From a virus, in the IMG/VR virus record IMGVR_UViG_3300024054_000015, positions 1 to 64,000 of that record: a stretch of DNA of 64,000 bases. One strand, 5' to 3'. A program made the translations under genes and the position numbers. Positions 14,046 through 49,411 of the stretch are shown here, piece by piece. Below the pieces are notes generated by a model, which had not been told where the DNA came from, did no database searches, and was given only the letters and a program-made list of their open reading frames with translations. Position 1 is the stretch's first letter. Every line of letters begins with the position of its first letter.

Positions 14046-14048
14046 TCC

Positions 14049-16935: not shown

Positions 16936-17666
16936 ACAGCATCGTAGTCTGTGTGGAGTTCGACGATTTCCTAGCTCTTACTTTGCCAAGGAACAGGCGG
17001 CACTTTGGGCGGACGCTGGTAGTTACCTCCTGTGCTGATGTTTCCACTCAGAAGCTGGCTCTGGAGAACTCCTGCGAGTGCTTCGTTACGAACTCGTTCT
17101 ATGAACGTGGGGCGATGTTCAACAAGGGCTCGGCCTTGGAGAAGGGCCTGGACGTTCTCGGCAGGGAGGGCTGGATTTGCATCTGGGATGCAGACATTGT
17201 CATGCCGAACTCCATAGAGTTTGACAAGTCAGAGGAGTGCCTCTATACAGCCCTACGCAGAACCCTAGACTTCCCGCAGGACTTCAACGACAACCTGGAC
17301 TGGGAAACCGTTCCTGTTACTGGTCTCGAGTGCGAGTACCCTGGATACTTTCAACTGTTCCATGTCTCAGCAGCTAGACAAAAGCCTTGGTACGAAACAG
17401 ACTGGACGCACGCGGGCGGCTGTGATGGCAGCTTCCAGCACAGGTTCAAGAGGTTGGCTAGACCACCCTTCAACGTCCTGCACTTAGGCCCGAGCGTAGA
17501 CGAAGCTCCACTATTCCATTTGAGAATAGGAAACAACTGGTGCGGCAGGACCACTCCCAGGTTAGACGGTAAACCACTGTCGCCAGATGCTAGGCTGCAT
17601 CAAGTGGCCTCTATTTCAGAGAGTAGAAGGGTAGGTTGTGGCACAATGAATGAGAAGCTGAAATGA
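16932..17666 (+). CDS. GT-A type glycosyltransferase
   Basis: 244 aa from the ATG at 16932 (ATGA overlap). The D-x-D motif lies in WICIWDADIVMP at about residues 80-91, after a region with KGSALEKGLDVLG that resembles nucleotide-sugar pocket helices. The C-terminal part has HLGPSVDEAPLFHLR. No membrane segment. Family-level call only. Confidence 0.55.
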   Translation: MNSIVVCVEFDDFLALTLPRNRRHFGRTLVVTSCADVSTQKLALENSCECFVTNSFYERGAMFNKGSALEKGLDVLGREGWICIWDADIVMPNSIEFDKSEECLYTALRRTLDFPQDFNDNLDWETVPVTGLECEYPGYFQLFHVSAARQKPWYETDWTHAGGCDGSFQHRFKRLARPPFNVLHLGPSVDEAPLFHLRIGNNWCGRTTPRLDGKPLSPDARLHQVASISESRRVGCGTMNEKLK

Positions 17667-18526
17667 TTTCAAAGCGTATGGCGTTCTTCTGGGTTGGTCG
17701 CATGTCTTGGCTAAGGTGGCTGACCCTCAGTAGCTTCGTTAGGTTCAACCCAGACTGGGAGGTTGTGCTTTACACAGCCGACAGTGAGTTTGTCGGGTCA
17801 AAGCATTGGAAGTCTGACAACGACGACGATAGCTCCTACGAGGGGCCTGACTATTGGGAGCATATTCCAAAGCAGGTCATCGTCAAGAAGTTTGTACCAC
17901 CTTCCGTAATGAGTGCTGCCCAGATGTGTGATCTGTTCCAGTGGTGGTACTTGGGCACAGAGGGTGGGTTCTATGCCGACATGGACATCCTGTGGCTCCG
18001 GCCTTTCGATGAGACTTATAGAACCTGTCTAAACTCTAACGCTGTGTTCTGCCTAGAGGGTACACTCCTAGCCATTGGCCTTGTAGGCTCTACACCGGAT
18101 TGCCCACTGTTCAGGGCTATCTATAGCGGAGCCGAGATAGAGTCCAATGCCGACTATCAGCACTATGGGACTAACCTTGTCTACAGAGTGTTCGAGATTG
18201 GCTATGGTAAACCTCATCCCGGCAAGAAGTTTCTTAACCTAGCTAGAAGGATCTACCCGAATCTGCAAATAGAGGAGATCCCGCAGAATACGGTCTATCC
18301 ATTTATCTGGGATGAGGCCGACAAGATCTTTGAGAGAAAGCTGCCTGTGCCTAACAGTTCTGTAGGAATCCACTGGTTTGGAGGAGGGCCAATCCCTAAC
18401 AAATGGAACAGGTTATTGACCGAGGACTCCTGGACAAGCTACGACAACACTTTCACTGCCAGATTGAATAGGATCTGCAAAGTTGAAGGTAACTTTAATC
18501 TATCCCCCACAGCAGTCGCGTCCTGA
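17663..18526 (+). CDS. GT32/OCH1-like glycosyltransferase
   Basis: 287 aa, ATGA overlap. QMCDLFQWWYLGTEGGFYAD followed by MDIL contains the R/D-x2-R-like helix and D-x-D motif of GT32 (OCH1, capsule) transferases; a late GIHWFGGG segment fits the family's C-terminal His-Trp motif. It is the second GT32-like gene in the operon (the first is at 14867). Its last 44 nt overlap the following gene. Confidence 0.65.
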   Translation: MISKRMAFFWVGRMSWLRWLTLSSFVRFNPDWEVVLYTADSEFVGSKHWKSDNDDDSSYEGPDYWEHIPKQVIVKKFVPPSVMSAAQMCDLFQWWYLGTEGGFYADMDILWLRPFDETYRTCLNSNAVFCLEGTLLAIGLVGSTPDCPLFRAIYSGAEIESNADYQHYGTNLVYRVFEIGYGKPHPGKKFLNLARRIYPNLQIEEIPQNTVYPFIWDEADKIFERKLPVPNSSVGIHWFGGGPIPNKWNRLLTEDSWTSYDNTFTARLNRICKVEGNFNLSPTAVAS

Positions 18527-19841
18527 CATTCCCCACAAGCCAGAGGCTTCCCTAGCTTATCCTTATCTGGCTGGGGGTCTACTAGACCTTGGTGTAAGTG
18601 TCAGTATCTATGACGCCTGTGTAGGGAACAGTAAAGATCCTGAGGACGTGTTCTACAACTCTGTGGACCTCCCTAGTGGGCTACGCAGATACGGGGTTTC
18701 AGACGACAGGATCTTAGAGGAGGTTAGCGACAGTGACCTAGTTGGCATCACTTCCATATTCACTGCTCAGGAAACGATGGCCCTGTACGTCGGCAGGCTC
18801 ATCAAGAAACATTTTCCAGACAAGGTCTTGGTTTGTGGCGGCACCAATGCCAGAAGCAGACCTAGGATGTTCATCAAGTCTGGGTTTGACGTGGTCTGTA
18901 TGTCTGAGGCCGACTACAGCATCCAAGCCATCGCCTACGCAGTAGAGAACCACAGGCCGACTAGAAGGTTCTACCGGCAACCACTGATCACCAACCTGGA
19001 CCAGCTTCCCATGCCAGCTTGGGAGCTACACCAGAACGATCGGTACTGGCAGTTAGGAAAGCCTCACGGTTCAGCCCAAGGTGAGGGCTTCAAGTACGCT
19101 CCCATCATGACCTCTAGAGGATGTGTGTTCAGGTGCAGCTATTGCCACATCTCAGGAGAGCAAGGCATCTGCAAGTTTCGTGTCAAGTCCTTGGACAGGG
19201 TTTCCTTAGAGTTGGAGAAGCTTCGCACCCTGGGTGTAGAGAACCTCTTCATTGAGGACGACACGCTATTCGGGAACAAGCCCAGGGGCCTTGACGTCTT
19301 GAGGCTAGTCCAGCAGTTCAGCTTTAAGGTCTGGGACATCAACGGCGTCAACATTGCCCACCTGTTCAAAGGCAGCGAGCCAGACCAAGAAGTCCTGGAC
19401 ACTCTTCAGGCTTGTGGCTTTGCAGCCCTGACCATTCCAGTAGAGTCTGGTAGCCAGAGGATCCTGGACAAGTACGCCTCCAGGAAGTGGCAGGTAGCCA
19501 GATACGACATATCGAAACTCATCAAGGGTCTGAACAGCAGAGGCATCAAGGCAGGCGTGAACTACATGCTGGGCTATCCAGACGAGACCCTAGAGGAGAT
19601 GCAGTCAACCATCGCTCTAGCTCAGAAGCTAAGAGACGCTGGGGCGAACAGTTCAAACTTCATGATCGTTATCCCACTGCCTGGAACTGCCATCTATGAC
19701 ATGGCTATTAGGGAGGGGTATCTGGATCTAGACTTTAACCCAGATACGTTCAACTGGAGGCAAGCCAGCATGAAGAATACAACCGTGCCAGCAAGTCAAA
19801 TAGAGGAGATGCAAGCCGAAGCCTACGCCAAGCTAAACTAG
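18483..19841 (+). CDS. B12-binding-domain radical SAM enzyme
   Basis: 452 aa, TTG start in an overlap of 44 nt. The N-terminal 150 residues look like a cobalamin-binding Rossmann domain (LIYPPQQSRPD, CGGTNARSRP, EADYSIQAI). The radical SAM core follows with SRGCVFRCSYCH (CxxxCxxC). Class B radical SAM enzymes of this type often methylate unreactive carbons or phosphorus, or rearrange lipids and sugars. It ends the operon. Confidence 0.75.
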   Translation: MKVTLIYPPQQSRPDIPHKPEASLAYPYLAGGLLDLGVSVSIYDACVGNSKDPEDVFYNSVDLPSGLRRYGVSDDRILEEVSDSDLVGITSIFTAQETMALYVGRLIKKHFPDKVLVCGGTNARSRPRMFIKSGFDVVCMSEADYSIQAIAYAVENHRPTRRFYRQPLITNLDQLPMPAWELHQNDRYWQLGKPHGSAQGEGFKYAPIMTSRGCVFRCSYCHISGEQGICKFRVKSLDRVSLELEKLRTLGVENLFIEDDTLFGNKPRGLDVLRLVQQFSFKVWDINGVNIAHLFKGSEPDQEVLDTLQACGFAALTIPVESGSQRILDKYASRKWQVARYDISKLIKGLNSRGIKAGVNYMLGYPDETLEEMQSTIALAQKLRDAGANSSNFMIVIPLPGTAIYDMAIREGYLDLDFNPDTFNWRQASMKNTTVPASQIEEMQAEAYAKLN

Positions 19842-19860
19842 GCTGTTTGGCGTAATGCCC

Positions 19861-19962
19861 AACAAGGCCCCTAGCTACCCTGTAGGCGAGCGCAAGCCGT
19901 AACAAGGTGCAGCTAGGCCACTAACTACCAGCGCTCGGCTACGGGCCTGCTAGGGGCTTTAA
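19861..19962. repeat. Long inverted repeat (CTAG family), convergent junction
   Basis: Arms 19861-19893 and 19931-19962 pair over about 30 nt with mismatches; the right arm contains CCTGCTAGGGGCTTTAA. It lies between the end of the + strand modification operon and the - strand csrA gene and probably stops transcription. It belongs to the same family as 4086-4181 and 53281-53385. Only one GA and one TC occur in 19841-19998. Confidence 0.7.
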
Positions 19963-19986
19963 TTGGCATACTACCTTTGGGGGTAA

Positions 19987-20046
19987 GGTAGGCAGCGCTC
20001 TCGCTCGGGTCCTGCTCCGCCCGTAGCTTGAGAGCGCTGCCCTACC
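19987..20046. terminator. Strong hairpin between convergent operons
   Basis: GGTAGGCAGCGCTCTC (from 19987) pairs with GAGAGCGCTGCCCTACC (ending 20046), with further pairing of CGGG and CCCG. The stem lies 6 nt past the csrA stop on the - strand and also downstream of the + operon, so it can serve both. No long U-tract is present. Confidence 0.65.
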
Positions 20047-20052
20047 GTTCTG

Positions 20053-20226
20053 CTACTGTTTACCCTCCAGCTTGATCCTGTCGTAAACTTCCTGTCTATG
20101 CACTGGCATCTCTTTCGGGGCCTCGATGGCTATGCCCACCTTGTCTCCCCTAATGTAAGAGATAGAGATCCTGATGTTGTCACCAATCATGATCGACTCG
20201 CCAGCGTGTCTACTGAGAACTAGCAT
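20053..20226 (-). CDS. csrA: Carbon storage regulator CsrA
   Basis: 57 aa. The start MLVLSRHAGESI is the canonical CsrA N-terminus. The core (GDNIRISISYIRGDKVGIAI) and EAPKEMPVHRQEV carry the RNA-binding GIxAP-like and VHR residues. AAAGGAG precedes the ATG at 20226. CsrA binds GGA in hairpin loops near ribosome sites and controls translation of host or phage mRNAs. The gene ends the long - strand early operon and is coupled to the small gene upstream by a 17-nt overlap. Confidence 0.95.
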   Translation of the reverse strand: MLVLSRHAGESIMIGDNIRISISYIRGDKVGIAIEAPKEMPVHRQEVYDRIKLEGKQ

Positions 20227-20380
20227 CTTGAACTCCTTTACGATCTGGTTCTGACCCTGTCTCATCAACTATCCCTAGATCATAGGCCTCCTCTAGAGAC
20301 AACTCTCCATGATGGAATGCACTTCGTGCGTCTTCTGTATCAATCGTTTGATCCAAGAAGTCGTCAGCCATATCTCCCAT
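20210..20380 (-). CDS. Small acidic protein upstream of csrA
   Basis: 56 aa, read as MGDMADDFLDQTIDTEDARS onwards, with GAAGGAGTAAGTT before the ATG at 20380. Acidic and helical, with no family recognised. Its 3' end overlaps the csrA start, so csrA translation may depend on it. It starts 4 nt after the ligase stop. Confidence 0.6.
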   Translation of the reverse strand: MGDMADDFLDQTIDTEDARSAFHHGELSLEEAYDLGIVDETGSEPDRKGVQDASSQ

Positions 20381-24776: not shown

Positions 24777-25000
24777 CTGTCAAGTCTCCCTTTGAATTGA
24801 TTCACAGCATCAAAGAAGTTTTCGCTGTAGTGCCCGAACTCGGTACTACCGTCTGGAAAGAATCTCCAGGAGACATACTCTCCATCAGGTCTACCTCCCT
24901 TGTTCCAATGGCAAAGAACATAAATGTTTCCGCAGCGGCTCTCCATTCCTGTTAGGACTACCGCTCCGTTTTCTAGAATGGTTCCAGGTTTTGGAATCAT
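24773..25000 (-). CDS. Small hypothetical protein
   Basis: 75 aa, beta-rich (TILENGAVVLTGMES, VLCHWNKGG). It overlaps both neighbours by 4 nt, typical of a translated chain of early genes. Function unknown. Confidence 0.55.
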   Translation of the reverse strand: MIPKPGTILENGAVVLTGMESRCGNIYVLCHWNKGGRPDGEYVSWRFFPDGSTEFGHYSENFFDAVNQFKGRLDR

Positions 25001-25212
25001 GATGGCCTCCGGCTCAGTCTACGAGGGGGCTCTCTGCGAACAGGCTGCTCCTCTGGAAGAAGAGGCTGTGCTAACGGCTCTTGCTCACAGGGGTCAATTG
25101 GTCTCACTTGTATGTCTCCGTCCATGTTGATACCGAATCCCATCAAGTTGGTCGTGATAGCCATGCGGCCTCTAACGACACCATCCACTACTAGTTCGTA
25201 ATACTGAATCAT
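24997..25212 (-). CDS. Small hypothetical protein
   Basis: 71 aa, ATGA-coupled to the PcfJ-like gene. N-terminal beta part (YYELVVDGVVRGRMAITT) and a Pro/Arg-rich tail (EEQPVRREPPRRLSRRPS) that may bind nucleic acid. Function unknown. Confidence 0.5.
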   Translation of the reverse strand: MIQYYELVVDGVVRGRMAITTNLMGFGINMDGDIQVRPIDPCEQEPLAQPLLPEEQPVRREPPRRLSRRPS

Positions 25213-26441
25213 CTGATCGGACCTCCCTGAAAGTAGTCCTCAAACAAGTGTCGAACTTCTTTACTCACTGGACTGTTGCACGGTCCACTCACCTGAACTA
25301 TAGCTCCGGCTCTCGTTTCGATTTGGCCCAGAGCTATCGGCTTTCCACCTCCGTTTCTAAGAACCAGTAGCACACTGGTCCTCTTGTCTATGGGATCGTG
25401 GTAGTTGGCAGCACAGTTATGAAGAGCCACCCCAATCTCCACGAGCTCACCGTAAGTCCTAACTGGACCAATGGTCGTTTCACCAACCTCCACAGTTGGG
25501 AACCTGTCTACCCAATCGTAGACGTACTCTTTGGGAACCGTCGGCACCCAAGGATGGCCCCATCTCTCACGATTCGCGGCGTCTATAGCCTCGATCGTAG
25601 CGAACAGCCTTTCTGGTGGCATGGCTAAGACTTGATCAAACTCTTCGTCACGAAGTCTGGTGACCTCGTCCAGTCTGCCCATTCTGTTCTCCACCCTAAA
25701 CCAGTCTCTGTACCTCCAGATGTACTCCAGGAGTCGCTTGATCTCCAGGCGCTTCTCCTTGGACTTCCAATACCATTTAGATGGAGTTAGTATCCCCTGC
25801 GACGTACCATAGCCTAGAGCTATGATATAGTCTGGAGGAACTATCGCCAGATCATTGACTTGTTGCAGAACCGTCTGCAAGTCAAACTTCCAGAGGATGA
25901 AGAAGTCCTTTCCCCTTTTGTACTTCATCCAAGTCTCCCTGACGTAAGGATCCTCGCAGAAGCAGAACTCGAGGTTATCTCTGTGAGGAACCTTCTTGTC
26001 ACCAAAGATCCTGGTGTAGTTGTCGGCAGCTTTGACTGCCCGAAGATAGAACTTCGGCTGTGCAGCTTTGATGTGCCGATAGAGAATGCCTGCTGGAATG
26101 CAGTCCTTGTCCAACTCATCCAGCGTTACATTCCCTCTACAGGTGTTAGACAGAATCATCAGGAACCTCTCAATAGAGGTATCAATCCTGTTCCCTCCAG
26201 CCCAAGCTCTGAGCTTTCCATTCTTAAGAGTCGGTTCTAAAGAAGGAACACGGCTATGCCATACAGACTCTGCTGCTGCGATAGCCCATCTCACGGACAG
26301 CTCTCTACTGTGTCCGCGTTCCCGAGCCTTCTTGTAGTTCTCGATCATCTTAACGGCATTCGGCAAGAGTGCATGATGCCGTCCGATGTCGTTTACCCAA
26401 CGAGGCTTGCCTGAAGACAAGCATGGAGTGCTCCAAGGCAT
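25209..26441 (-). CDS. PcfJ-like protein
   Basis: 410 aa from the ATG at 26441, which overlaps the previous stop (TAATG). The C-terminal 110 residues carry the PcfJ-type pattern: GVALHNCAANYHD, then SVLLVLRNGGGKPIALGQIE and VQVSGPCNSPVS. PcfJ proteins occur on conjugative plasmids and phages; the role is unknown, with RNA or nucleotide-linked functions suspected. The N-terminal 250 residues are helical and unassigned. Confidence 0.65.
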   Translation of the reverse strand: MPWSTPCLSSGKPRWVNDIGRHHALLPNAVKMIENYKKARERGHSRELSVRWAIAAAESVWHSRVPSLEPTLKNGKLRAWAGGNRIDTSIERFLMILSNTCRGNVTLDELDKDCIPAGILYRHIKAAQPKFYLRAVKAADNYTRIFGDKKVPHRDNLEFCFCEDPYVRETWMKYKRGKDFFILWKFDLQTVLQQVNDLAIVPPDYIIALGYGTSQGILTPSKWYWKSKEKRLEIKRLLEYIWRYRDWFRVENRMGRLDEVTRLRDEEFDQVLAMPPERLFATIEAIDAANRERWGHPWVPTVPKEYVYDWVDRFPTVEVGETTIGPVRTYGELVEIGVALHNCAANYHDPIDKRTSVLLVLRNGGGKPIALGQIETRAGAIVQVSGPCNSPVSKEVRHLFEDYFQGGPIR

Positions 26442-28808: not shown

Positions 28809-29513
28809 TTACTCCTGGGCCTTGGCCTTCTTCAGTTCCTCACGACCCTTGGCCGTGATCTTGAACCGCTTCCCTCGCACCCCCTCCTCCGGCACGAGCT
28901 CTTCGAGCAGCCCGCCTTCCACGATCTGGGGCAGCTTCTTGCCCTTCTGGATTCCAGTGCTGTCGGCGATCTCACTGGCAGTCCGAATGTTGCCGTCATC
29001 CATGGCCTCCAGCACCTTGATCATGTTCGGCGTCAAGCCATTGAATGACTTCCGGCCTTCCCCCTTGGCCCTCGCCAGCTTCGGCAGCGGTCCAATCGAG
29101 GCCCGGTGCTTCTTGGCATCCTCCAGAATGCTCCACTCCTCGGTGTACTCCAGTTCCCGTTGGGCTTTCGCCACAGCGGCATCGGCCAGAGCGATCTCCT
29201 CCTCCTTCTTGGCCCTCTCAGCCAAGGCCAACTTCTTCTCGTTTTCCTTGGCCTCCTTCTTGGAGTTCTTCTCCTTTTTCTCCTTCTCCTGGGCTTGCTT
29301 CAGCTCCTTCTTGAGCTCCTCCATCTTCCGCTTGATGGCCTCCTTGGCCTCGTTCTGGGCCTTGGCCTTCTTGACGTTCTCCTCGTCCATCTTCTTCTCC
29401 TCGGGGGTCGTGGCGGGCTTCCCAACCGGCAGGGGCTTCGTGGTCCCCTCGGCGGCCTTCTTCTTCTGCTCCTCGGCCTTCTGCTGGTTCTGCGGGTTCT
29501 GATTCTTAGCCAT
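28809..29513 (-). CDS. Coiled-coil winged-helix protein
   Basis: 234 aa from the ATG at 29513 (GCAGGAGCAACAG). Residues 1-150 are an extremely charged Lys/Glu/Ala coiled coil. Residues 155-234 are a winged helix: LTPNMIKVLEAMDDGN, then ASEIADSTGIQKGKKLPQIV and RGKRFKITAKGRE. The winged helix is clearly paralogous to the product of 48951-49271. Likely a DNA-binding, possibly nucleoid-like or regulatory protein. Confidence 0.65.
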   Translation of the reverse strand: MAKNQNPQNQQKAEEQKKKAAEGTTKPLPVGKPATTPEEKKMDEENVKKAKAQNEAKEAIKRKMEELKKELKQAQEKEKKEKNSKKEAKENEKKLALAERAKKEEEIALADAAVAKAQRELEYTEEWSILEDAKKHRASIGPLPKLARAKGEGRKSFNGLTPNMIKVLEAMDDGNIRTASEIADSTGIQKGKKLPQIVEGGLLEELVPEEGVRGKRFKITAKGREELKKAKAQE

Positions 29514-30173: not shown

Positions 30174-30348
30174 CCGAGTCTCCCTTTCCTCCAACTACTT
30201 TCCACTGCCCGTAGTCCAACGCTGGACTACCACACTTCTTGCACAGCACATCCCTCCAGAGCTCTTTCGGTCCGGTATAGGTCGCCGGATCCTTGGCTCT
30301 CTGGCAATGGCCGCACTCCTGACACTCACGAATGAACCACTTAGTCAT
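30160..30348 (-). CDS. Zinc-ribbon protein
   Basis: 62 aa from the ATG at 30348. Two Cys pairs (CQECGHC, CKKCG) about 30 residues apart form a zinc ribbon. It overlaps both neighbours. Likely a small nucleic-acid or polymerase-binding early protein, by analogy only. Confidence 0.55.
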   Translation of the reverse strand: MTKWFIRECQECGHCQRAKDPATYTGPKELWRDVLCKKCGSPALDYGQWKVVGGKGDSDAKA

Positions 30349-30602
30349 ACTCTCATCTCCCCAAGTGTCAACCATACTTCAGAGAGGTTCTGCTTGTCTC
30401 GCTTAACGTGCAAGATCTTGTATCCGTGTTTCTTGATCCTCATTCCAGCGACGCTAGCGATTCTTTGCTCATCCATACTCTTCCAGCGGTCGTAGACCTC
30501 CATGGCTCTGTCCCTGGCTTCCTTCATGGATCCAGCCTTAACCAGATCCGTCCACACGAAGAGTCCAGCTTGAACTCTCACTTTCCAAAAAGAGTCGGTC
30601 AT
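30345..30602 (-). CDS. Small hypothetical protein
   Basis: 85 aa from the ATG at 30602, directly after the previous stop (TGAGATG). It has a helix KEARDRAMEVYDRWKSM followed by a basic strand region (RIKKHGYKILHVKRDKQ). Function unknown; the upstream in-frame extension is rejected because it lies inside the gene at 30604-30774. Confidence 0.55.
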   Translation of the reverse strand: MTDSFWKVRVQAGLFVWTDLVKAGSMKEARDRAMEVYDRWKSMDEQRIASVAGMRIKKHGYKILHVKRDKQNLSEVWLTLGEMRV

Positions 30603-30603
30603 C

Positions 30604-30774
30604 TCACTTCTCCAAGTGAACCAAGAGTCTGTCAACCAGATCCGAGTCGCGGTCGTCGACCTCCGCCGCGTCGTTGAATACCTCCAACGCATGCTCCAGT
30701 TCGTCTCTGGTTAAGTTCCCCAGCGGCACTCCCGCCAAGATCTCCTTCAGTTCTGCTACACTCAACATTTTCAT
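30604..30774 (-). CDS. Small acidic helical protein
   Basis: 56 aa, starting MKMLSVAELKEILAGVPLGN. Very acidic C-terminal half (FNDAAEVDDRDSDLVDRLLV). AGGGAGTGCTAGG precedes the ATG. One base from the next gene. Function unknown. Confidence 0.55.
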   Translation of the reverse strand: MKMLSVAELKEILAGVPLGNLTRDELEHALEVFNDAAEVDDRDSDLVDRLLVHLEK

Positions 30775-30804
30775 CCTAGCACTCCCTAAGCAATCATCGA
30801 GGAA

Positions 30805-30841
30805 TCTGCCTCATCAGTGCCGGTAGATCATCTCCGGCAGA
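30805..30841 (-). terminator. Nested hairpin after 30847 gene
   Basis: TCTGCC / GGCAGA encloses a CCGG-AGAT / ATCT-CCGG stem. It starts 6 nt past the stop of the - strand gene at 30847 and lies in the leader of the gene at 30604. Confidence 0.5.
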
Positions 30842-30846
30842 GTCAG

Positions 30847-31041
30847 TCACTCCTGGCTTTCGGCTTTCCTCGCAAGCTCCATCAGGGCACTGGTAATCTG
30901 CTCCTCTGTTATTCTAGCCTTTCGGCTCTTTGTGTTGTCGGTCATCTGTACAAAACATCTCAGCCTTCTATTCGTTTTCGCTCTTATCATGTTCTCCGTA
31001 ACAAACACGGAATTCATTCCACCTAGTTCTCTAACGCTCAT
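30847..31041 (-). CDS. Small basic protein
   Basis: 64 aa; ATGA overlap with the upstream gene. Basic and helical with RAKTNRRLRCFVQM and ARITEEQITSALMELARKA. Function unknown. Confidence 0.5.
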   Translation of the reverse strand: MSVRELGGMNSVFVTENMIRAKTNRRLRCFVQMTDNTKSRKARITEEQITSALMELARKAESQE

Positions 31042-31442: not shown

Positions 31443-31518
31443 TCGCTCCACGCCTTACACTGCCTGCGCTGCCTGCTATACGCTGCGCCACTGTGTAGGC
31501 AAAAACCAATAGGCGCAA

Positions 31519-31550
31519 TAAAGCCCGTATGGCAAGCCATACGGGCTTTA
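31519..31550 (-). terminator. Perfect hairpin after cassette gene
   Basis: TAAAGCCCGTATGG and CCATACGGGCTTTA pair over 14 bp around a CAAG loop, 17 nt past the stop of the - strand gene at 31567. The - strand continues with TTGCGCCTATTGGTTTTT, giving a loose T-rich tail. Confidence 0.75.
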
Positions 31551-31566
31551 CGTGCGCTGCGCTGTG

Positions 31567-31920
31567 TTACTTGCCAGCGCTTACCAGCATGTAGTAGGCT
31601 GTGCCACCAACGGTAGTACCGTTGTTGCCAACGTAGCCGCCAGTGGTAACGCTTACCACTTGGCCAGCGCTGGCAAGCTTGCGCAATGTGCCGCGCAGTG
31701 GTGCCCATACAAGCTTGCCATTGCTGCGCTTGCGCGGCTTAAAGCCGCAAGCTTGCGCTACTTGGCGCAGTGTGTAGGGCTTACCTGCCTGCAAGCTTGC
31801 AAGTACTGCGCTGCCTTGCGGCGCTGCCTGCGCTGTGCTGGCAAGCGCTGCCTGCAATGCTGCAAGCGCTGCCTGTTGGGGGCTGGTGGTGGTGCTGGTG
31901 GTGGTGCTGGTGGTTGCCAT
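31567..31920 (-). CDS. Winged-helix protein of GA/TC-free cassette
   Basis: 117 aa from MATTSTTTSTTTS. It contains no Asp, Glu, Ile or His, a direct result of the missing GA/TC dinucleotides. After a Thr/Ser/Ala-rich 45-residue arm comes a winged-helix-like part: VLASLQAGKPYTLRQVAQAC, a basic patch FKPRKRSNGK, GTLRKLASAGQVVSV and GTAYYML. It parallels the winged helices at 28809 and 48951. Even its ribosome site (TTAGGGGT) avoids GGAG. Probably DNA-binding. Confidence 0.6.
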   Translation of the reverse strand: MATTSTTTSTTTSPQQAALAALQAALASTAQAAPQGSAVLASLQAGKPYTLRQVAQACGFKPRKRSNGKLVWAPLRGTLRKLASAGQVVSVTTGGYVGNNGTTVGGTAYYMLVSAGK

Positions 31921-32040
31921 GTGCGTTACCCCTAAGCTGGTGGTGCAGTACCGTTGCTGCCACATTGGCAGCAACCGGCGTAACAGTGGCAACAACCGCA
32001 AGCGCTGTGCCAATGGCGCGCAAAATGGCTACAAGTGGCA

Positions 32041-32073
32041 GCGCGCGCGCACATATATGTTGTGTGCGCGCGC
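32041..32073 (-). promoter_or_regulatory. Alternating GC/AT inverted repeat
   Basis: GCGCGCGCGCACA and TGTGTGCGCGCGC flank TATATGT. The alternating purine-pyrimidine tract could form a cruciform or Z-DNA. It lies about 120 nt upstream of the cassette gene, at the right edge of the GA/TC-free block, and may hold its promoter or act as a border. Confidence 0.5.
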
Positions 32074-32147
32074 CGCCCCTGCCGGTCATTCACCATACAG
32101 ACTCATAGAAAGTTTGGATAACATGGAAATACGACTATTGGAAATAT

Positions 32148-33457: not shown

Positions 33458-33790
33458 TTAACCAAAATCAACTGCACTAGGTACAAACTGTTCCCTTTCG
33501 TCCAACTCTTCCTGAGGAACATCCTCAGGTTCTACTGGCTGTGCTGAAAGCGTTCTCCTTTCTTTGAGTTCTTCTTTTGTCAGGTACTGCCATCCACATA
33601 GACCCTCGTCTAGTTCTGGGGCTTCGTGGTTGGCAGTAGAGGTACTAATGACCTTAATACCTATCCCTTTAGTAGTCCCACGGCCATTAGACCGTACGAT
33701 GTGGTCCTCACTAGACCACCCTGCGCGAATTTTCGCAGTTTCCTGGGCAATTTCTTCCTCTGTGGGAAGATAGGGTGTAGCCCTCGGCAT
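33458..33790 (-). CDS. Small acidic protein, first gene of - strand block
   Basis: 110 aa with AAAGGAGGTTCCAA before the ATG. It has a helical N-terminus, a Gly/Thr-rich middle (RSNGRGTTKGIGIKV) and an acidic C-terminus (VEPEDVPQEELDERE). It is driven by the promoter at 33835-33863. Function unknown; position suggests an early gene. Confidence 0.6.
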   Translation of the reverse strand: MPRATPYLPTEEEIAQETAKIRAGWSSEDHIVRSNGRGTTKGIGIKVISTSTANHEAPELDEGLCGWQYLTKEELKERRTLSAQPVEPEDVPQEELDEREQFVPSAVDFG

Positions 33791-33834
33791 TTGGAACCTC
33801 CTTTAGTTGCTGGCTGTTGTTCCAAGTATGCCTA

Positions 33835-33863
33835 ATTATACACAACTATTTATGTTTTAACAA
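33835..33863 (-). promoter_or_regulatory. Sigma70-like promoter of - strand block
   Basis: On the - strand TTGTTA (-35), a 17-nt spacer and TATAAT (-10) lie about 45 nt upstream of the start at 33790. The -35 is inside the repeat at 33847-33866, so a protein bound there would control the promoter. Confidence 0.65.
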
Positions 33864-33866
33864 TAA
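33847..33866. promoter_or_regulatory. Candidate operator, copy 1
   Basis: TATTTATGTTTTAACAATAA, 17 of 20 identical to the copy at 34043-34062. It overlaps the -35 and spacer of the promoter at 33835. Two copies bracketing a divergent intergenic region suggest a shared regulator or an origin-binding protein. Confidence 0.5.
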
Positions 33867-34042
33867 CCCCTTTGGGTGGGGCTAACAAGCAGTTCGGATC
33901 TACTTTGGATCTTCTTTAACTCTTACTCTAATAATATAATAATAAAATAATAAGAATACTGACCCATTGTAAGTATAGTGGAGAATGCCGCAAGTGCAAG
34001 GCCCGAGGCCGCGAATGGTGTGCGGCTCCCTTGCAAAAGCCT

Positions 34043-34062
34043 TATTTATGCTTTAACATAAA
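34043..34062. promoter_or_regulatory. Candidate operator, copy 2
   Basis: TATTTATGCTTTAACATAAA, directly before the GTG start at 34066. It contains an imperfect palindrome (TTTATG / CATAAA). The 33867-34042 interval between the copies holds a 30-nt A/T-only tract near 33930-33955 and no gene. Confidence 0.5.
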
Positions 34063-34065
34063 GGT

Positions 34066-34638
34066 GTGGCACCTTACCCTTCTCTTCAGAAAGTTGCGGC
34101 GATGCGGGAAGAATTCGAAAGGATGATTGAGTTAGGCAAATGCGGGTACAAGCTCGCAGTCCTCAAGATTGTTAGACCAGACACCGATCCCGAGTACACC
34201 TACCAGTTAAGGCTGGATGGGCTGCGCTATGGGCAGTTCGGCATTGTGCAGGAGGATGAGATCTTCTACGTGGTCCACGTGGGCTCGGGCAGAGTTTGCG
34301 GTGAGTTCACAGTTATTGAGACTGCTGAGCGTGAGGTTTTTCTTCTCAGAAAATTGACCGACTGGAGGAAGGTTGGCTGGAGTGACAATGAGAAGTTTCT
34401 AAAGAGTCCTTTCCGCTTCATCTGTGCTGAAGCTGCGGAGTATTGTGTAGGTCTGGACAAGCCATTTGACAGACTCGCCAAGGCTGTGAAGGCCGCTCTC
34501 CCTAAGACTAAGGAAGAGATCGTGGAAGAGTTTGCATTTGAGCTACAGTCCACTCCATTCGGGGATGATGAGGAATTTGTACCTCCCAAGCGGTCTGAAG
34601 CCAAGAAAGACGATGGCTGGGGGCATACTATTACATAG
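34066..34638 (+). CDS. Hypothetical protein, first gene of + strand replication block
   Basis: 190 aa; GTG at 34066 behind AAAGG, with an alternative ATG at 34102. Mixed alpha/beta; C-terminus is acidic then basic (FGDDEEFVPPKRSEAKKDD). It faces the - strand block across the divergent control region. No family recognised. Confidence 0.5.
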   Translation: MAPYPSLQKVAAMREEFERMIELGKCGYKLAVLKIVRPDTDPEYTYQLRLDGLRYGQFGIVQEDEIFYVVHVGSGRVCGEFTVIETAEREVFLLRKLTDWRKVGWSDNEKFLKSPFRFICAEAAEYCVGLDKPFDRLAKAVKAALPKTKEEIVEEFAFELQSTPFGDDEEFVPPKRSEAKKDDGWGHTIT

Positions 34639-34686
34639 TGGCGGCGGCGGGCTTGCCTTATTACTGTTTGTGGTTACTATACTAAT

Positions 34687-34902
34687 ATGGCACATAAATA
34701 CAGCAATTATCGTGGTCGTCCAAGGAAGTATCCATGGAAGACCTGGTTCAAAAACTCTGTGACCCATTTGGTTCGTGGTAAGGACTACCAGTGTGAACCT
34801 TATAGTCTGGCTATACAGATACGCAGGATGTCTAACATCCTGGACATTCCAGTTACGGTCTCCGTACATGCAGAGCGGGTGACCATTACGAGGTTGAAAT
34901 GA
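34687..34902 (+). CDS. Small basic AT-hook-like protein
   Basis: 71 aa with YRGRPRKYPWKTWF near the N-terminus (RGRP-R core of AT hooks) and a beta-rich C-terminus (IPVTVSVHAERVTITRL). ATGA overlap with the HNH gene suggests a joint function or joint mobility. Confidence 0.5.
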   Translation: MAHKYSNYRGRPRKYPWKTWFKNSVTHLVRGKDYQCEPYSLAIQIRRMSNILDIPVTVSVHAERVTITRLK

Positions 34903-40606: not shown

Positions 40607-40832
40607 AATCTATGAACCATTGGATATGCACACAGAGTGTCGGCGGATAATCAAGCTCCGCATTGCGGAGCTTGGGCTCCTGCGGGCGGAAGTGGAGCGG
40701 TTGCGGAAGGCGTTGCTGTGTCCAGAGTGCGCTGGGAAAGGACAAGTGGCTGTGTTTGGTATCACTACCGTTAACTGGATGGACTGCCCCAACTGCGAGG
40801 CAGCGAAGATCCGAAAGGAAGCACAGAAATGA
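40599..40832 (+). CDS. Small zinc-binding coiled-coil protein
   Basis: 77 aa with helix LRAEVERLRKALL and two Cys pairs, CPECAGKG and CPNC, a DnaJ-type CxxCxGxG half. Overlaps both neighbours by 4-8 nt. Function unknown. Confidence 0.5.
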   Translation: MSKIYEPLDMHTECRRIIKLRIAELGLLRAEVERLRKALLCPECAGKGQVAVFGITTVNWMDCPNCEAAKIRKEAQK

Positions 40833-42325
40833 GTAAGACTAGAAAGTTGCAGTTTGAGAATCTCGAGTCCCGTCAGTTGCTCTCGACCGATCTATGGCCG
40901 AAAGGGGTGGGACTGAAGGCCGATGTCTTCGTCGATGGCGGGGTTGAATTGTCGAAGGTGTCGTTGGCAAAATCCGCCAACCTCGCTGGACTCACACGCG
41001 AAGTGTTCTTCACCAACAGTGGTGCGACGACGCGCGCTGTGATCGGTGGCAATGCCAACGATACCAACGGTGCTCTGCTGTTCCCGGATGGCCAGCCGCG
41101 ATTTGGCACCATCTATGTCAACGGCGGATCGGCGGGTCATGCCAAGATAATGGGCGCGGCGGGGCGACAAGCAATAGAAACCTTCTATGCCCACGGAGGT
41201 TCCTACACCGGCTCGTGTGCTGGTGAGTTTGTGGCAGCACGTCGTATTCCGTCGCTTTGGGGCGGGAAGGTTGGTAATCAAGGTAACACAGGAAGACAAA
41301 CCATTACGTTTGATGAAACCGACCATCCGCTGGTGCAGGATTTGATGCGCTGGAACGGCGGCAGTAATGTCGTCACCAACGTCCCGCACTATTGGGGACC
41401 GACGAACCGGGAATCTTATCCGCATCCCGAGGGGACGCTGTTCCTCGGCACGATTACGGGCGGGCTGTATCGTGGAACCGATTTCCTCGTCGAATACCAA
41501 CGCGATGCGGAATCGGGGGTAACGGTGCTCAGCCCCTCCCATCCTGAGTATGGTAGGCAGGCTAGTCATACAGCCTTGATGGCGTCGATACTAAAGCGGG
41601 CCAACGATCTGTCGCGCACCACACCGGACCTGAAGGGCACGCTGGTTAGCGACCAGTCCTTGGAAATGAGCGGCCCGGAACAGAAAGTCGGTGATGGGCA
41701 GTATCACAGATATACGCTCGAGGTTCCAGAGGGAACGAGCGTACTGTACGTGGGTCTCACCAACCTTAGCGGCAACGCTGACCTCTTTATACAGAAGGAT
41801 GGCGTAGCGCACGCTGGTAGCTACCTAGTGAAGTCAACCAACGTCGGCGATGACATGGTGGCAATTCCAAGCCCGGAGGCTGGCACGTATGAGATCAGTG
41901 TGTTCGGGGCACATACGGTGTTGAATGGTGCAGCCTACACTTTGTCAGTGAAAGCTCAAGCGGTGGACATGGTACTAGCGGAAGCGGAGATGAACATGAG
42001 TGACGAGGTGAAGGTCGAAGGTCCGTACACCTTCGGGTTGACCCCTGGCTCCAAGTTGGAGGTCCAGACCATTGAAGGTCAGGAGATCGATCGCCTGCGG
42101 GTGGAAATGGATCAGTTACAAAAGAAACTGGATGAGGCTAACAAGTTGTTGGCCGCGTCGATGCGACTGTTGAAGAATCGCGATTACTATTGGAGTTGGA
42201 ACTATAAGCTGGAGCAATACGGCTACTTCAGCCAGGGTGAGTACGTCGGTACGGAGTTACTGGACGTGGTGAAACTGGAGGCCAGACTCGCAAATGAAAG
42301 AGCCAGCAACAGTAACGCCAGTTGA
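40829..42325 (+). CDS. Planctomycete-type secreted GATase-like/PPC protein
   Basis: 498 aa. The N-terminus KLQFENLESRQLLS is the export signal found on many planctomycete surface proteins (LExRxLLS). Residues 35-260 look like a BPL_N/class I GATase-like domain with YTGSCAGEF as the nucleophile elbow. Residues 285-380 are a PPC beta-sandwich. The last 105 residues are a coiled coil of phage style that begins near an internal ATG with its own ribosome site. G/C-ending codons suggest recent gain from a host. It may act on or outside the host envelope. Confidence 0.7.
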   Translation: MSKTRKLQFENLESRQLLSTDLWPKGVGLKADVFVDGGVELSKVSLAKSANLAGLTREVFFTNSGATTRAVIGGNANDTNGALLFPDGQPRFGTIYVNGGSAGHAKIMGAAGRQAIETFYAHGGSYTGSCAGEFVAARRIPSLWGGKVGNQGNTGRQTITFDETDHPLVQDLMRWNGGSNVVTNVPHYWGPTNRESYPHPEGTLFLGTITGGLYRGTDFLVEYQRDAESGVTVLSPSHPEYGRQASHTALMASILKRANDLSRTTPDLKGTLVSDQSLEMSGPEQKVGDGQYHRYTLEVPEGTSVLYVGLTNLSGNADLFIQKDGVAHAGSYLVKSTNVGDDMVAIPSPEAGTYEISVFGAHTVLNGAAYTLSVKAQAVDMVLAEAEMNMSDEVKVEGPYTFGLTPGSKLEVQTIEGQEIDRLRVEMDQLQKKLDEANKLLAASMRLLKNRDYYWSWNYKLEQYGYFSQGEYVGTELLDVVKLEARLANERASNSNAS

Positions 42326-42937: not shown

Positions 42938-42943
42938 TCTACG

Positions 42944-43029
42944 GGCCTGATAGTGTAATCGGTAGCACATTGCTGTTCAAGATCGGTGGCTTGGCAGTGA
43001 AGGTGTGGGTTCGAATCCCACTAAGGTCC
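42944..43029 (+). tRNA. Degenerate tRNA-like sequence, isotype unclear
   Basis: The acceptor pairs GGCCTGA with TAAGGTC (one mismatch), the D-arm is TAGTGTAATCGGTAGCACA, and the T-arm GTGGGTTCGAATCCCAC is perfect. The anticodon region does not fold cleanly: either TTGCT/GGCAG closes an 18-nt loop, or TTGCT/ATCGG with one mismatch gives loop GTTCAAG with anticodon UCA and a long variable arm. No CCA is encoded. It could be an intact odd tRNA, a suppressor, or a decaying copy. Confidence 0.5.
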
Positions 43030-43296
43030 TTGAAAACAAGACTGTAAATCTGGCAGCAGTAATGTCGCAACGCACAGTCTACAACCGACCTCACGGACGC
43101 TCGCGAAAGCGTTGGTCTGGCAGGTTTGTGCGTAGCTGTAGAAATGTCTGGTCTTTGTTCGCGGGAGCTGGACCGTCTCCACGGAGACGTTTCGAGCCTA
43201 CACTCCTTTCCACAGATGGGCTTTTGTCCGGGTTAGCCGCCGGACGCTGGTGGGCTCCGGAAGCTAATGTCCGTCCCACCCAACTAAGCAGTACCT
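43030..43296 (+). other. Gene-poor structured stretch
   Basis: No convincing gene. Short hairpins are present: CGTCTC/GAGACG near 43175-43190 and GTCCGG/CCGGAC near 43227-43246. An Arg/Ser-rich ORF (43057-43400) runs through it into the next gene and is probably spurious. The stretch may be a processed leader or a remnant of more tRNA-like sequence. Confidence 0.4.
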
Positions 43297-43963: not shown

Positions 43964-45970
43964 GTGCCGAAAGTAAAGGAGCATATCTATGCCTTGGATA
44001 CCGAAGCTACAGGGTTAGATCTAAGGCATGGGGCTAGGCCGTTCTTTGTCAGCATTTGCACACAGGACAACGAGGTACACTATTGGGAAGCTACAGTTGA
44101 TCCACTAACTAGGAGGCCTTATTGGAAAGAGGAGGACTTGTATGAAATCCAGGAGATGATAGATGAGGCCGATACCTTGGTCCTGCAAAACCCTCGGTAC
44201 GACTTTCGTGGGCTGGACCTGTTGGGACTCAGGGCTGGTACTCCAAGGAATTGGATCAAGGTCCGCGATACGTTAATGGCTGGGCATCTGCTAGTGTCCA
44301 ATCAGCCACATGATCTAACCACTATGGCTATGATCTATCTGAGGCTGAACATTCAACCACTTGAGGACAAGCTGGAGGCAGCGGTTAAGGAGGCCGTTAG
44401 GATTGCCAAGCGCAAGTACCCTAAGTGGAGGTTGGCTAAGAAAGACCTGCCCGAGATGCCTAGTGCCAAGGACAAGGTCTGGAAGTACGACTCCTGGCTA
44501 CCCAAGGCTATTGCCGCAGCAGAGGGCTACGAGCCTGACCATGACTGGTGGACCGTTCTAGCAAACTACGGCAACGGCGACAGTAGTGTGACCCTGCCGT
44601 TGTACTTAGCCCAGGAGAAGCTGCTAATCAAGGCTGGGCTTTACAGTATCTACAAGTTCCGGCTCAAGCTGTTGCCAACCATCTACAAGATGGAAACACA
44701 TGGCATGACTATGAGTAAGGAGCGGACCACCGAACTACTGGCTAGGCTCACAGATGAATCCGAGCAGTGTCGCGCTAACTGTATAGAGCTCTCTGATGGA
44801 GAGTTGGAGGACTTGCCCGTTAATGGAATGAGCAATGCTCTACGGCATGTGCTGTTTGAGAAGTTCTCCTTACACTCACCTAAGCAAACAGCCGCAGGAA
44901 AGTCCAGTGCTGACAAGTTCGTGCTGGACCACTGGATCGCTACTCTTCCAGAAAGTTCCAGGGCTTGGAAGTTTGTTAACGACCTGAAGAGGTACCGAAA
45001 GCGTAAGACTGCCATAGGGTACATTCACTCCTATGAGAAGTTCTGGCAGCATACGGTAGTCACGCTGCGTGGTAGTGGTACTGTCATGATAGTGTACCCC
45101 TCGTATAATCCGACGGGCACAGATACGCTGCGGTTCAGTAGCCAGAACCCTAATGCCCAACAGGTCAGCAAGCAGGAGGAGGTCAACACTCGCTACTGCT
45201 TTGGTCCAGCCCCAGGTCGTGAGTGGTGGTCCATAGACTTCTCCAACCTGGAGTTGCGTATCCCAGCCTACGAGTCGGGCGAAGAGGAGATGATATTCCT
45301 GTTCGAGCATCCGAACGATCCACCCTACTATGGCTCCTACCACATGATGATCTTCGACACGCTGCACCCTAACCTGTTCCTGGAACATGGTATGGAGTGC
45401 AAGAAGGTCTTCGAGTCTACGTGGTATCAGTGGACCAAGAATGGAAACTTTGCTGTGCAGTATGGGGCTGTGGAGCATAGTGGTACGGCAGATAAAGCCT
45501 ACCACGTACTAGGAGCCCAGCGTAAGATCATGTCGCGGTTCACTAGGATCAAGCAACTCAGCAATCGGTGGATCGAGTTCGCCAATAAGTCTGGCTATGT
45601 GGAAACAATGCCCGACAAGACAGTGGACCCTATTCGGGGTTATCCCCTATACTGTACCCGCACCAACTACGGCAAGGTCTTGGAAACAGTGCCTCTAAGC
45701 TACCACGTTCAGGGTACTGCCATGTGGATCACCTGTAGGGCGATGATTGACTGCCAGAACTACTTGGACATACATAAGAGTAGTGGTGGCAGGATAATCT
45801 CACAGATCCATGACGAGATCCTGTTCGACTTCCCGGTAGGTGTAGGCAAGCACCATGTTGGGAATCTTAGGAAGCTAATGGAGCAGGTAGGTCAGGATAT
45901 TGGGGTTCCATTGGCAACCACTTGCGGCTATCATCCAGTAACTTGGGCCAAGTCGGAGAACTATCAGTGA
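43964..45970 (+). CDS. Family A DNA polymerase with 3'-5' exonuclease
   Basis: 668 aa; GTG start. Exonuclease: YALDTEATGLD (Exo I), VLQNPRYDFRGLD (Exo II), GNGDSSVTLPLY (Exo III). Polymerase: motif A SIDFSNLELR near residue 425, motif B KNGNFAVQYGA near 492, motif C QIHDEILFD near 615. The residue four after the motif B Lys is Phe, as in E. coli Pol I Phe762. It is the replicative polymerase and would copy any modified thymidine nucleotide. Confidence 0.92.
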   Translation: MPKVKEHIYALDTEATGLDLRHGARPFFVSICTQDNEVHYWEATVDPLTRRPYWKEEDLYEIQEMIDEADTLVLQNPRYDFRGLDLLGLRAGTPRNWIKVRDTLMAGHLLVSNQPHDLTTMAMIYLRLNIQPLEDKLEAAVKEAVRIAKRKYPKWRLAKKDLPEMPSAKDKVWKYDSWLPKAIAAAEGYEPDHDWWTVLANYGNGDSSVTLPLYLAQEKLLIKAGLYSIYKFRLKLLPTIYKMETHGMTMSKERTTELLARLTDESEQCRANCIELSDGELEDLPVNGMSNALRHVLFEKFSLHSPKQTAAGKSSADKFVLDHWIATLPESSRAWKFVNDLKRYRKRKTAIGYIHSYEKFWQHTVVTLRGSGTVMIVYPSYNPTGTDTLRFSSQNPNAQQVSKQEEVNTRYCFGPAPGREWWSIDFSNLELRIPAYESGEEEMIFLFEHPNDPPYYGSYHMMIFDTLHPNLFLEHGMECKKVFESTWYQWTKNGNFAVQYGAVEHSGTADKAYHVLGAQRKIMSRFTRIKQLSNRWIEFANKSGYVETMPDKTVDPIRGYPLYCTRTNYGKVLETVPLSYHVQGTAMWITCRAMIDCQNYLDIHKSSGGRIISQIHDEILFDFPVGVGKHHVGNLRKLMEQVGQDIGVPLATTCGYHPVTWAKSENYQ

Positions 45971-46356
45971 AGGCTAAGTGTGTAGCTATCTTAGATACTA
46001 TGTGGGGAGGATCTGGCAAGGCTCCAGGTATGTTTAGGATAAACCCTAAGAACCACACAGGCCGGAGGCTGTACTGGTTCCTCGGCCACAAGGATCTATG
46101 GGTTACGAATGCCTGCACAGAGTACGTCGCCAATGCCAAGCTGCACGGGAGGCCAGACCCTAAGAGGTTGGCAACTAACCTCCAGAGAGTCACCTGTGAC
46201 CTATTGCTGGTCTGTGGTTCGGTGGCTGCTAAAGCCTTTAGGAAGTGTGGCTACAAACCGAAGTGTAGGGTCATATACATTCCGCATCCAGCTTGGCGTG
46301 GTTGGACAATGGAGCACTTGGAAGAAGTGAGAAGGAGAATACAAGATGAAGATTGA
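45967..46356 (+). CDS. UDG-superfamily-like protein
   Basis: 129 aa; GTG overlaps the polymerase TGA. A short alpha/beta fold with CDLLLVCGSVAAKAF and VIYIPHPAWRGWT, resembling the central strand and HPSP loop of UDG-like folds, but without the N-terminal GE-PG motif. Possibly a base-recognition protein linked with the modification genes that follow. Confidence 0.5.
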   Translation: MKAKCVAILDTMWGGSGKAPGMFRINPKNHTGRRLYWFLGHKDLWVTNACTEYVANAKLHGRPDPKRLATNLQRVTCDLLLVCGSVAAKAFRKCGYKPKCRVIYIPHPAWRGWTMEHLEEVRRRIQDED

Positions 46357-47224
46357 AGATGTTAGGAAGCTAAGCCCAGAAGGGAGGTTTCTGTATTGGG
46401 TTGGGGAAAGATGGAATATCCTTAGCAAGAGAAGGAGTGGCTATGTAAGGCCCTGGACGAATGACAAGATCTTACAGTCCTACTACTTTACCAATGTGAA
46501 GCGTAAGGATGACAAGGTCACCATCTGGGTTACTGAGAACATTATTGGACCAATGCAATGGGATCCACTGGTCATCTTTGCAGTCCTAGCCTTTCGGTGG
46601 TTCAACCAACCCCAACCTTCTGGAGAGTATCTAGTAAGTCATGATCTTCTAAAGCTGTGGAACTGCGAGTTGGCAGTGAAGGGACTTACAGGGTTCAAGA
46701 ACGCGGGCTTGAAAGTGTTCACTGGAGCCTTTAACATTTCCAATGGAGGTAGTAGCAAGCCTAAAGTCAACCGCGTCTGCGAGGACTACATCCAGCCAGT
46801 ATGGGAGTGTCGAGAGAACTTACTGAACCGTATATTAGAGCCCAAGGAGCGTACCCTCGCAAGAGCCTTTGAGGTAATCTCCGAGTATCCAGGTATGGGT
46901 GGCAGTGGCTTCATGGCTGCTCAGGTTGTCTGTGATCTAGCCTACACACACTTTCTAGAGGATGCTAAGGACTTTGAAACATGGTGTTCCTGGGGTCCGG
47001 GAAGTAGACGTGGTATGAATAGAGTGTGTGGCTTTGATGAAAACTTTCCAATGCCAGCAGGGGATTGGAATGTTAGACTTCAACGCTTGCGTGGGGTCAT
47101 CAGTAGGAAGCTTGGCCTAAACCTCCATGCCCGCGATGTTCAGAACTGTCTATGTGAGTTCTCGAAATACGAAAGGGCTTTGTGGAATCAAGGTCACTTA
47201 AAGAGGAGGTACAAGGGTGCCTAG
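46346..47224 (+). CDS. HMUDK-helical / thymine-modification protein
   Basis: 292 aa. The N-terminal motif ERWNILSKRRSGYVRPWTND followed by KILQSYYFTNVKRKDD is the signature of the 5-hmdU DNA kinase helical domain/putrescinyl- and glutamyl-thymine pyrophosphorylase group that builds hypermodified thymine in phage DNA. No separate P-loop kinase is visible here. Overlaps upstream and downstream genes by a few bases. Confidence 0.7.
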   Translation: MKIEDVRKLSPEGRFLYWVGERWNILSKRRSGYVRPWTNDKILQSYYFTNVKRKDDKVTIWVTENIIGPMQWDPLVIFAVLAFRWFNQPQPSGEYLVSHDLLKLWNCELAVKGLTGFKNAGLKVFTGAFNISNGGSSKPKVNRVCEDYIQPVWECRENLLNRILEPKERTLARAFEVISEYPGMGGSGFMAAQVVCDLAYTHFLEDAKDFETWCSWGPGSRRGMNRVCGFDENFPMPAGDWNVRLQRLRGVISRKLGLNLHARDVQNCLCEFSKYERALWNQGHLKRRYKGA

Positions 47225-48906: not shown

Positions 48907-48925
48907 ACACCGTTCAACGAGGGTT
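48895..48925. terminator. Bidirectional terminator at convergent genes
   Basis: AACCCCCGCTGAAC pairs with GTTCAACGAGGGTT around a 3-nt loop. On the - strand it is followed by TTTTTT, a classic U-tract for the gene at 48951; on the + strand by TTGTTTGTGTT. The radical SAM stop lies inside the stem. Confidence 0.8.
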
Positions 48926-48950
48926 GTTTGTGTTGATCGTAGTTGCCGTG

Positions 48951-49271: not shown

Positions 49272-49317
49272 CAAATGCTCCTTTAGAAATGTAACCAACA
49301 AAACACCACTACCTTGC

Positions 49318-49345
49318 ATTGTAGGGTATAATGAAGTATTGGCAA
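49318..49345 (-). promoter_or_regulatory. Sigma70-like promoter for winged-helix gene
   Basis: On the - strand TTGCCA, a 16-nt spacer and TACAAT lie about 47 nt upstream of the ATG at 49271. A TATAAT on the + strand at 49327 lies inside the spacer and may serve the thymidylate-synthase-like gene, giving a face-to-face arrangement. Confidence 0.5.
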
Positions 49346-49411
49346 GTCCTAGCTGAAAAATTTGTTCAAATAGTTGCAACTCGTGTTCCCACTCTCACTT
49401 AGGAGCAGACA

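Follow-up and report, generated by a model that had tools for sequence, protein, structure and literature searches.

The island and its transcription unit

The stretch analysed here (the window) comprises bases 1–64,000 of an 80,045-bp record, G000, from an uncultured virus of bacteria. It contains a 639-bp island without a single GA or TC dinucleotide, which holds a gene for a basic 117-aa protein (P0001) on the minus strand, preceded by a ribosome site and a presumed promoter/leader region and followed by a terminator-like hairpin (Table 1). Several long overlapping reading frames are expected by chance in the island, because the rule excludes TGA; the listed frame was taken as the gene because it combines a protein-like pattern with a ribosome site and a terminator, and we infer that it is the gene of the island. 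As the sequence-only reading had pointed out, its translation lacks Asp and Glu, and even the ribosome site avoids GGAG.

The N-terminus of P0001 is rich in Thr, Ser, Ala and Gln and is followed by a winged-helix-like domain, with Ala, Ser or Gln at winged-helix positions that are usually acidic. An AlphaFold model of low confidence (pLDDT 55) predicted helices at residues 34–44, 51–58 and 73–84 followed by two strands, and its top Foldseek matches were MarR-type winged helices, all of them weak (best E 0.2). No sequence match was obtained in Pfam, PHROGs or PDB. P0001 is probably a winged-helix DNA-binding protein. Neither a homologue of the cassette DNA or protein nor an empty site was found in the phages and viral contigs searched. 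Matches in a 15-mer scan were judged near chance for the size of the collection, although G002, a true relative, and L018, which is the same phage, were among them. Two weak protein matches were dropped, one in G044, where the ORF overlaps a better reading frame, and one in G021, a short match within a 1169-aa frame.

The 166-bp leader holds direct repeats as well as inverted repeats at 31953–31975 and 32034–32080, the latter of alternating purine-pyrimidine sequence (GCGCGCGCACA..TGTGCGCGCGC). A consensus scan recognised no sigma-70-type promoter within the island. The 127 nt enclosing the terminator-like hairpin gave a folding z-score of −4.07, and beyond this hairpin the island continues for 71 bp more, until it reaches the next gene's GGAG ribosome site. 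Hairpins had been proposed for both ends of the island: the right-hand one is present (32034–32080), but the other lies inside the unit and not at its edge. A Type II hammerhead ribozyme was observed at the Rfam gathering score (30800–30865, minus strand, 39.4 bits), on the same strand as the cassette and some hundreds of bases downstream of it.

Table 1. Coordinates of the island, its transcription unit, further GA/TC-free or GA/TC-poor regions and presumed modification genes in the window
Feature	Position	Strand	Evidence
GA/TC-free island, 639 bp	31448–32086	.	Counts, shuffles, 42-class scan
Terminator-like hairpin, perfect 15-bp stem, just 3′ of the gene	31519–31550	.	Folding, repeat search
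Gene for 117-aa basic protein P0001, no Asp/Glu	31567–31920	−	Translation
GA-free ribosome site AGGGGT before ATG (31920)	31928–31933	−	Sequence
Presumed promoter/leader of the unit	31921–32086	−	Inverted repeats
Intergenic GA/TC-poor region (O/E 0.26), long hairpin, motif copy at 4165–4184	4072–4227	+	
GA/TC-poor region (O/E 0.40) between converging genes, hairpin, motif variant at 19944–19963	19842–20052	.	
Divergent-gene region at GC-skew minimum (33965), free runs 33822–33894 and 34028–34081	33822–34081	.	
98-bp GA/TC-free run over start of gene 34687–34902	34613–34710	+	
150-bp GA/TC-free island, codons 9–58 of gene 53230–54606	53255–53404	+	Count, alignment
Family A DNA polymerase, places the phage among relatives	43964–45970	+	Profile, tree
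5-hmdU DNA kinase (HMUDK_hel)	46346–47224	+	Pfam PF18723 E 1.4e-38; 31% identical to M6 homologue
TET-associated glycosyltransferase (TAGT)	47217–48134	+	PF20691 E 3.6e-10; phrog_842 E 5e-35
Radical SAM/SPASM enzyme, presumed part of hypermodification cluster	48010–48906	+	Homologues in G046, G002, G049
Thymidylate-synthase homologue, presumed dUMP hydroxymethylase	49412–50458	+	PF00303 E 1.2e-20

Absence of GA and TC

Direct counting on both strands gave 0 GA and 0 TC in the island, confirming what had been read from the letters, and the several tens of each that had been anticipated correspond to 48 GA and 43 TC per 639 bp at the window-average rate. From the island's own base composition 75.9 GA and TC steps together are expected, and the lowest number among 2000 shuffles was 53. 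All 48 trinucleotides that contain neither GA nor TC occur in the island, from which it follows that the rule is exactly the GA/TC step and not a general low complexity; TG is abundant, with 82 copies.

Counting along the whole 80,045-bp record, a check proposed in the earlier reading, showed that the longest GA/TC-free runs after the island measure just 150, 98, 73 and 73 bp. The chance of a run such as the island anywhere in the record, calculated from the genome-wide GA/TC rate, is ~ 3e-39. The surroundings do use both dinucleotides freely, since elsewhere in G000 they are slightly above expectation (O/E 1.14; 1.09 at synonymous codon junctions). When 42 symmetric di- and trinucleotide classes were scanned in 35 related phage records, GA/TC in G000 ranked first and GA/TC in its sister phage G046 second, with GA/TC in G048 also among the top entries; the other classes yielded no comparable run in these records.

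The borders had been said to fall exactly at neighbouring gene signals. On the left this holds, as the island stops within the GGAG Shine-Dalgarno motif that serves the next gene (start near 31442). On the right it is only approximately true: the upstream gene ends at 32197, ~ 110 bp from the border, with its terminator-like hairpin in between. A search for a second assembly of G000 spanning 31–32 kb found none.

Further islands and a shared motif

Low GA/TC windows (120 bp, O/E < 0.45) were found at 4041–4240, 19781–20020, 33761–33880, 33961–34080, 34581–34740 and 53221–53440. The 150-bp island in gene 53230–54606 contains the motif GGGCTGCTAGGGGCCTTAAA at 53369–53388. With up to three mismatches, GGGCTGCTAGGGGCCTTAAA has three matches in G000 versus 0.01 expected, all of them in low-GA/TC islands. 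Copies of AGGGGSYTTAA lie in GA/TC-free or GA/TC-poor stretches in 3/3 cases in G000, 4/5 in G046 and 1/1 in G002, the last not being independent as G002 was found via the motif (G046 was found via its polymerase); ten other records had no copy.

Within the 150-bp island the encoded protein reads PVPRAW, where its homologues have PVPEEW, PVPEEW, PVKDDW or PYPQEW. Since the homologues align through the whole of this region, the GA/TC rule was evidently imposed in place, overriding their residues, and for the same reason an interpretation of the region as an insertion element was withdrawn. A general depletion of GA/TC in intergenic DNA was also rejected: rough gene calls gave a value of 1.06, part of the stretches scored as intergenic in that test being mis-called genes, and only specific islands were low. 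As a separate observation, TA-free runs of 336 and 361 bp cover a gene for a Lys/Gln/Pro-rich protein at 28810–29507.

Presumed thymidine-hypermodification genes

By homology, G000 appears to encode a thymidine-hypermodification enzyme set, located in a gene block at 43964–52337 that also includes MazG. Like M6, ViI and phiW-14, it has the HMUDK_hel kinase, a thymidylate synthase resembling dUMP hydroxymethylases, a radical SAM enzyme and a glycosyltransferase. The thymidylate-synthase homologue shares 39% identity over 320 aa with the enzyme of phage M6, the DNA of which carries 5-hmdU-derived bases. An M6-like alpha-glutamyl/putrescinyl thymine pyrophosphorylase was not among the G000 genes scanned; TAGT and radical SAM genes adjoin the kinase instead. 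Relatives of the 5-hmdU kinase were present in 103 phage records. The Tet_JBP profile had no match, though no positive control matched either.

Both hypermodified T and the action of 5-hmdU kinases have been placed in TG and TC dinucleotides (PMC6449724; PMC7653180). Bulky modifications block the RNA polymerases of Escherichia coli and Bacillus subtilis at promoters, whereas 5-hydroxymethyluracil is tolerated (summarised in PMC11550810).

Three other features of the window were recorded. A second cluster, distinct from that of the kinase, spans 11766–19841; it encodes radical SAM enzymes, glycosyltransferases and small methyltransferases, which could tailor DNA or the virion. A tRNA gene at 42943–43030 has an unusual anticodon loop (4-base 'caag' according to ARAGORN; Rfam tRNA 41.8 bits). 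The protein encoded at 40829–42325 begins with MSKTRKLQFENLESRQLLS, which we take to be a signal-like motif of planctomycetes and a possible hint to the host.

A sister phage and wider relatives

A polymerase profile search was used to find the family to which G000 belongs. Phage G046 (54,644 bp) is its sister in the PolA tree (support 98/98), with a polymerase 51% and a kinase 41% identical to those of G000. It has an island of 651 bp (30287–30937) with 0 GA and 2 TC, which holds a single autonomous gene; the encoded 160-aa protein lacks Asp and Glu, and a strong hairpin follows the gene. The model of this protein shows a helix-helix-helix-wing arrangement (pLDDT ~ 70 in the domain), and Foldseek returned TubR as the top match, followed by MarR and PadR, all weak (best E 0.057). 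The Asp/Glu-free proteins of the two phages share no detectable sequence similarity (Smith-Waterman score 28 versus a shuffle mean of 28.0) and are therefore regarded as equivalents, not as proven homologues.

Further GA/TC-free runs in G046 measure 207, 157, 153, 147 and 146 bp, its shorter islands spanning 137–207 bp overall. The longest of them, at 207 bp, extends over the start of gene 24952–26343, the orthologue of G000 gene 53230–54606, and at this start the acidic residues typical of homologues have been lost in both phages. In each of the two phages the GC-skew minimum (33965 in G000, 50455 in G046) falls at a divergent junction that is flanked by short GA/TC-free runs.

Among more distant relatives, the kinase-positive G048 contains islands in noncoding DNA, one of 279 bp (1 TC) and one of 180 bp. 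Phage G002 (L057–L059), positive for the kinase and the radical SAM enzyme, is depleted in GA/TC genome-wide (O/E 0.71; 0.63 at synonymous junctions, z −22) and may have carried the same constraint further. The kinase-negative relatives sampled from the PolA family, several of them partial, had no GA/TC-free run longer than 89 bp and GA/TC O/E values of 1.13–1.31. No clear islands were seen in the kinase-positive G017, G018, G021, G049, G053 and G057, and the phages with islands do not form one clade on the trees. In ~ 1.4 Mb of kinase-bearing contigs together with M6 and Epa5, no comparable island was found for any dinucleotide; the other long runs there were mostly much weaker and low-complexity-looking, and the notion that islands are a general trait of kinase phages was abandoned. 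One kinase-bearing relative, G033 (L098/L155), has a 1.6-kb run without AAA/TTT.

Discussion

GA and TC are absent from a 639-bp gene unit of G000, this absence recurs in the sister phage, and elsewhere in the genome it overrides acidic residues that homologues retain. The constraint applies locally, to both strands and to a single dinucleotide step, at control sites conserved between sister phages that carry hypermodification genes; it is most simply explained if the islands have to stay free of hypermodification. We consider it somewhat probable that they are hypermodification-free sites, kept readable for polymerase and regulators in a phage that hypermodifies TC. We chose a reading in terms of transcription for two reasons: the largest island forms an entire gene unit, and promoters are known to be blocked by bulky modifications of T. 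Escape from a modification enzyme had been among the causes listed in the sequence-only reading; that idea gains support here, except that the island would dodge the phage's own presumed modification and not a foreign enzyme.

According to this proposal, the 5-hmdU kinase of G000, or the enzymes acting after it, would work at TC (GA on the opposite strand), so that the T's of the islands would stay plain T or 5-hmdU. The published kinases accept both TG and TC. With TG plentiful in the island, this counts against the proposal unless the G000 kinase is specific for TC and not TG, as we infer. Bulky hypermodified T would block bacterial RNA polymerase and regulators at promoters, with 5-hmU being tolerated. 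If the T's of the island escape hypermodification, the TC-free unit would be transcribable by the host polymerase from the incoming, fully modified genome. Its product would be a small DNA-binding regulator acting at other TC-free elements (the motif GCTAGGGGCCTTAAAA, the divergent promoter region) and starting the phage programme, presumably in an immediate-early role. More tentatively, and with slightly less than even confidence, we suggest that such a genome may have two chemical registers, a hypermodified bulk and plain TC-free islands, in which an Asp/Glu-free immediate-early regulator, itself shaped by the rule, acts on the other islands. Several points weigh against the proposal: some kinase-positive relatives are without islands, the island phages do not form one clade on the trees, the two Asp/Glu-free proteins are dissimilar in sequence and their models are both of low confidence, no promoter was recognised, and the two outer parts of the island are superfluous for the simplest model of gene expression.

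The main rival to the transcription reading is a role in replication or packaging, for which the islands would likewise be kept free of TC hypermodification, the cassette being an initiator gene with origin-like DNA and the other islands initiation or protein-binding sites. The winged-helix fold is common in initiators, the weak top match of the G046 model (TubR) is a plasmid segregation protein, the leader holds the repeats described above, and both sister phages have GA/TC-free runs at the GC-skew minimum. The large island, however, is separated from that minimum by ~ 2 kb in G000 and by ~ 20 kb in G046. Islands are also scattered over many places, some of them inside gene starts, and the island gene has its own terminator-like hairpin. 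We regard this role as unlikely.

Four other explanations fit worse than TC-directed hypermodification. The best placed of them, which we nevertheless judge to be quite improbable, is that the island avoids methylation or another modification, by an enzyme of the phage or its host, of the A in GA or the C in TC. The sequence rule is silent on which base of TC/GA is modified, and the TAGT family is known also from modified-cytosine pathways. The presence of a thymidylate-synthase homologue and a 5-hmdU kinase argues for T, however, and the two methylase families searched, PF00145 (DNA_methylase) and PF01555 (N6_N4_Mtase), were absent from G000, G046, G048 and G002 while the positive controls matched.

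Marginally less probable is escape from a host nuclease, a restriction system or a CRISPR PAM that needs GA/TC, as the sequence-only reading had also proposed. A strand-symmetric rule as short as a PAM would suit it, and so would the genome-wide depletion of G002 at synonymous junctions, but the islands occupy regulatory positions that are conserved between G000 and G046. Moreover, only ~ 1 kb of the 80-kb genome would be protected, and since GA/TC is free elsewhere in G000, shielding less than 2% of the genome gives no protection.

A rule acting on RNA, under which island transcripts must lack GA (CsrA sites, GGA) or UC/GA (a dinucleotide-specific RNase), is less probable again. A CsrA-like gene is present in G000 (20053–20268, minus strand) and a similar one in G046, and several G000 islands fold into strong hairpins. 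Yet GA and TC are both absent and both strands obey, whereas avoidance of CsrA needs only the loss of GGA from the transcript; the hairpins, strong in G000, are not conserved in G046 (z near 0 or above −1.4), which also led us to discard a conserved hairpin as the unifying feature of the islands.

The least probable explanation, import of the cassette from a replicon that shuns GA/TC, or else chance, mutation bias or an assembly artefact, draws on a gene without detectable relatives and a region present in one assembly only, and is contradicted by the probability calculated above, by synonymous sites of G000 that show no depletion, by the equivalent island in the independent G046, and by the recurrence of the rule at other G000 sites, at the orthologous gene start in G046 and in a coding region that aligns with its homologues.

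TC-directed hypermodification with exempt islands would set G000 apart from known systems. The M6-type pathway has a published target of TG/TC, whereas in G000 the relevant step seems to be TC only, and it is missing from an entire gene. Neither M6 nor Epa5 showed an island lacking the target dinucleotides, and the literature cited here describes none. The M6 kinase reportedly uses TG. Intergenic TG/CA is lowered in M6 (0.76 vs 1.02 overall; L116/L118), which would fit a TG-preferring kinase, but this comparison was uncontrolled and was not used as evidence.

Avoidance of restriction sites or PAMs similarly keeps a short motif out of phage DNA, and acts genome-wide and statistically on 4–6-bp sites or PAMs; in G000, by contrast, a 2-bp step is wholly absent from discrete functional islands and free elsewhere. 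In both SPO1 and the present proposal, the base chemistry of the phage steers protein binding and the timing of gene reading. Practically all T is replaced in the 5-hmU DNA of SPO1, and we know of no sequence-defined unmodified islands in that phage. The SPO1 protein TF1 requires hmU DNA, according to work cited in PMC6449724. Three helices and a wing, as in MarR, PadR and TubR regulators, are predicted for both Asp/Glu-free proteins, with weak Foldseek matches; unlike these regulators, both are devoid of acidic residues, and neither has a significant sequence or structure match.

The authors of PMC6449724, who mapped TG/TC resistance, left the influence of modified T on promoters and transcription as a subject for later study. 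Islands of the kind described here would offer a direct answer to the question of how phages with bulky bases get their first genes read by the host polymerase. They would also be a case of a DNA-chemistry rule strong enough to strip all acidic residues from a protein. If the proposal is true, target-free islands would provide a readout, from sequence alone, of both the modification motif and the early control regions of uncultured phages.
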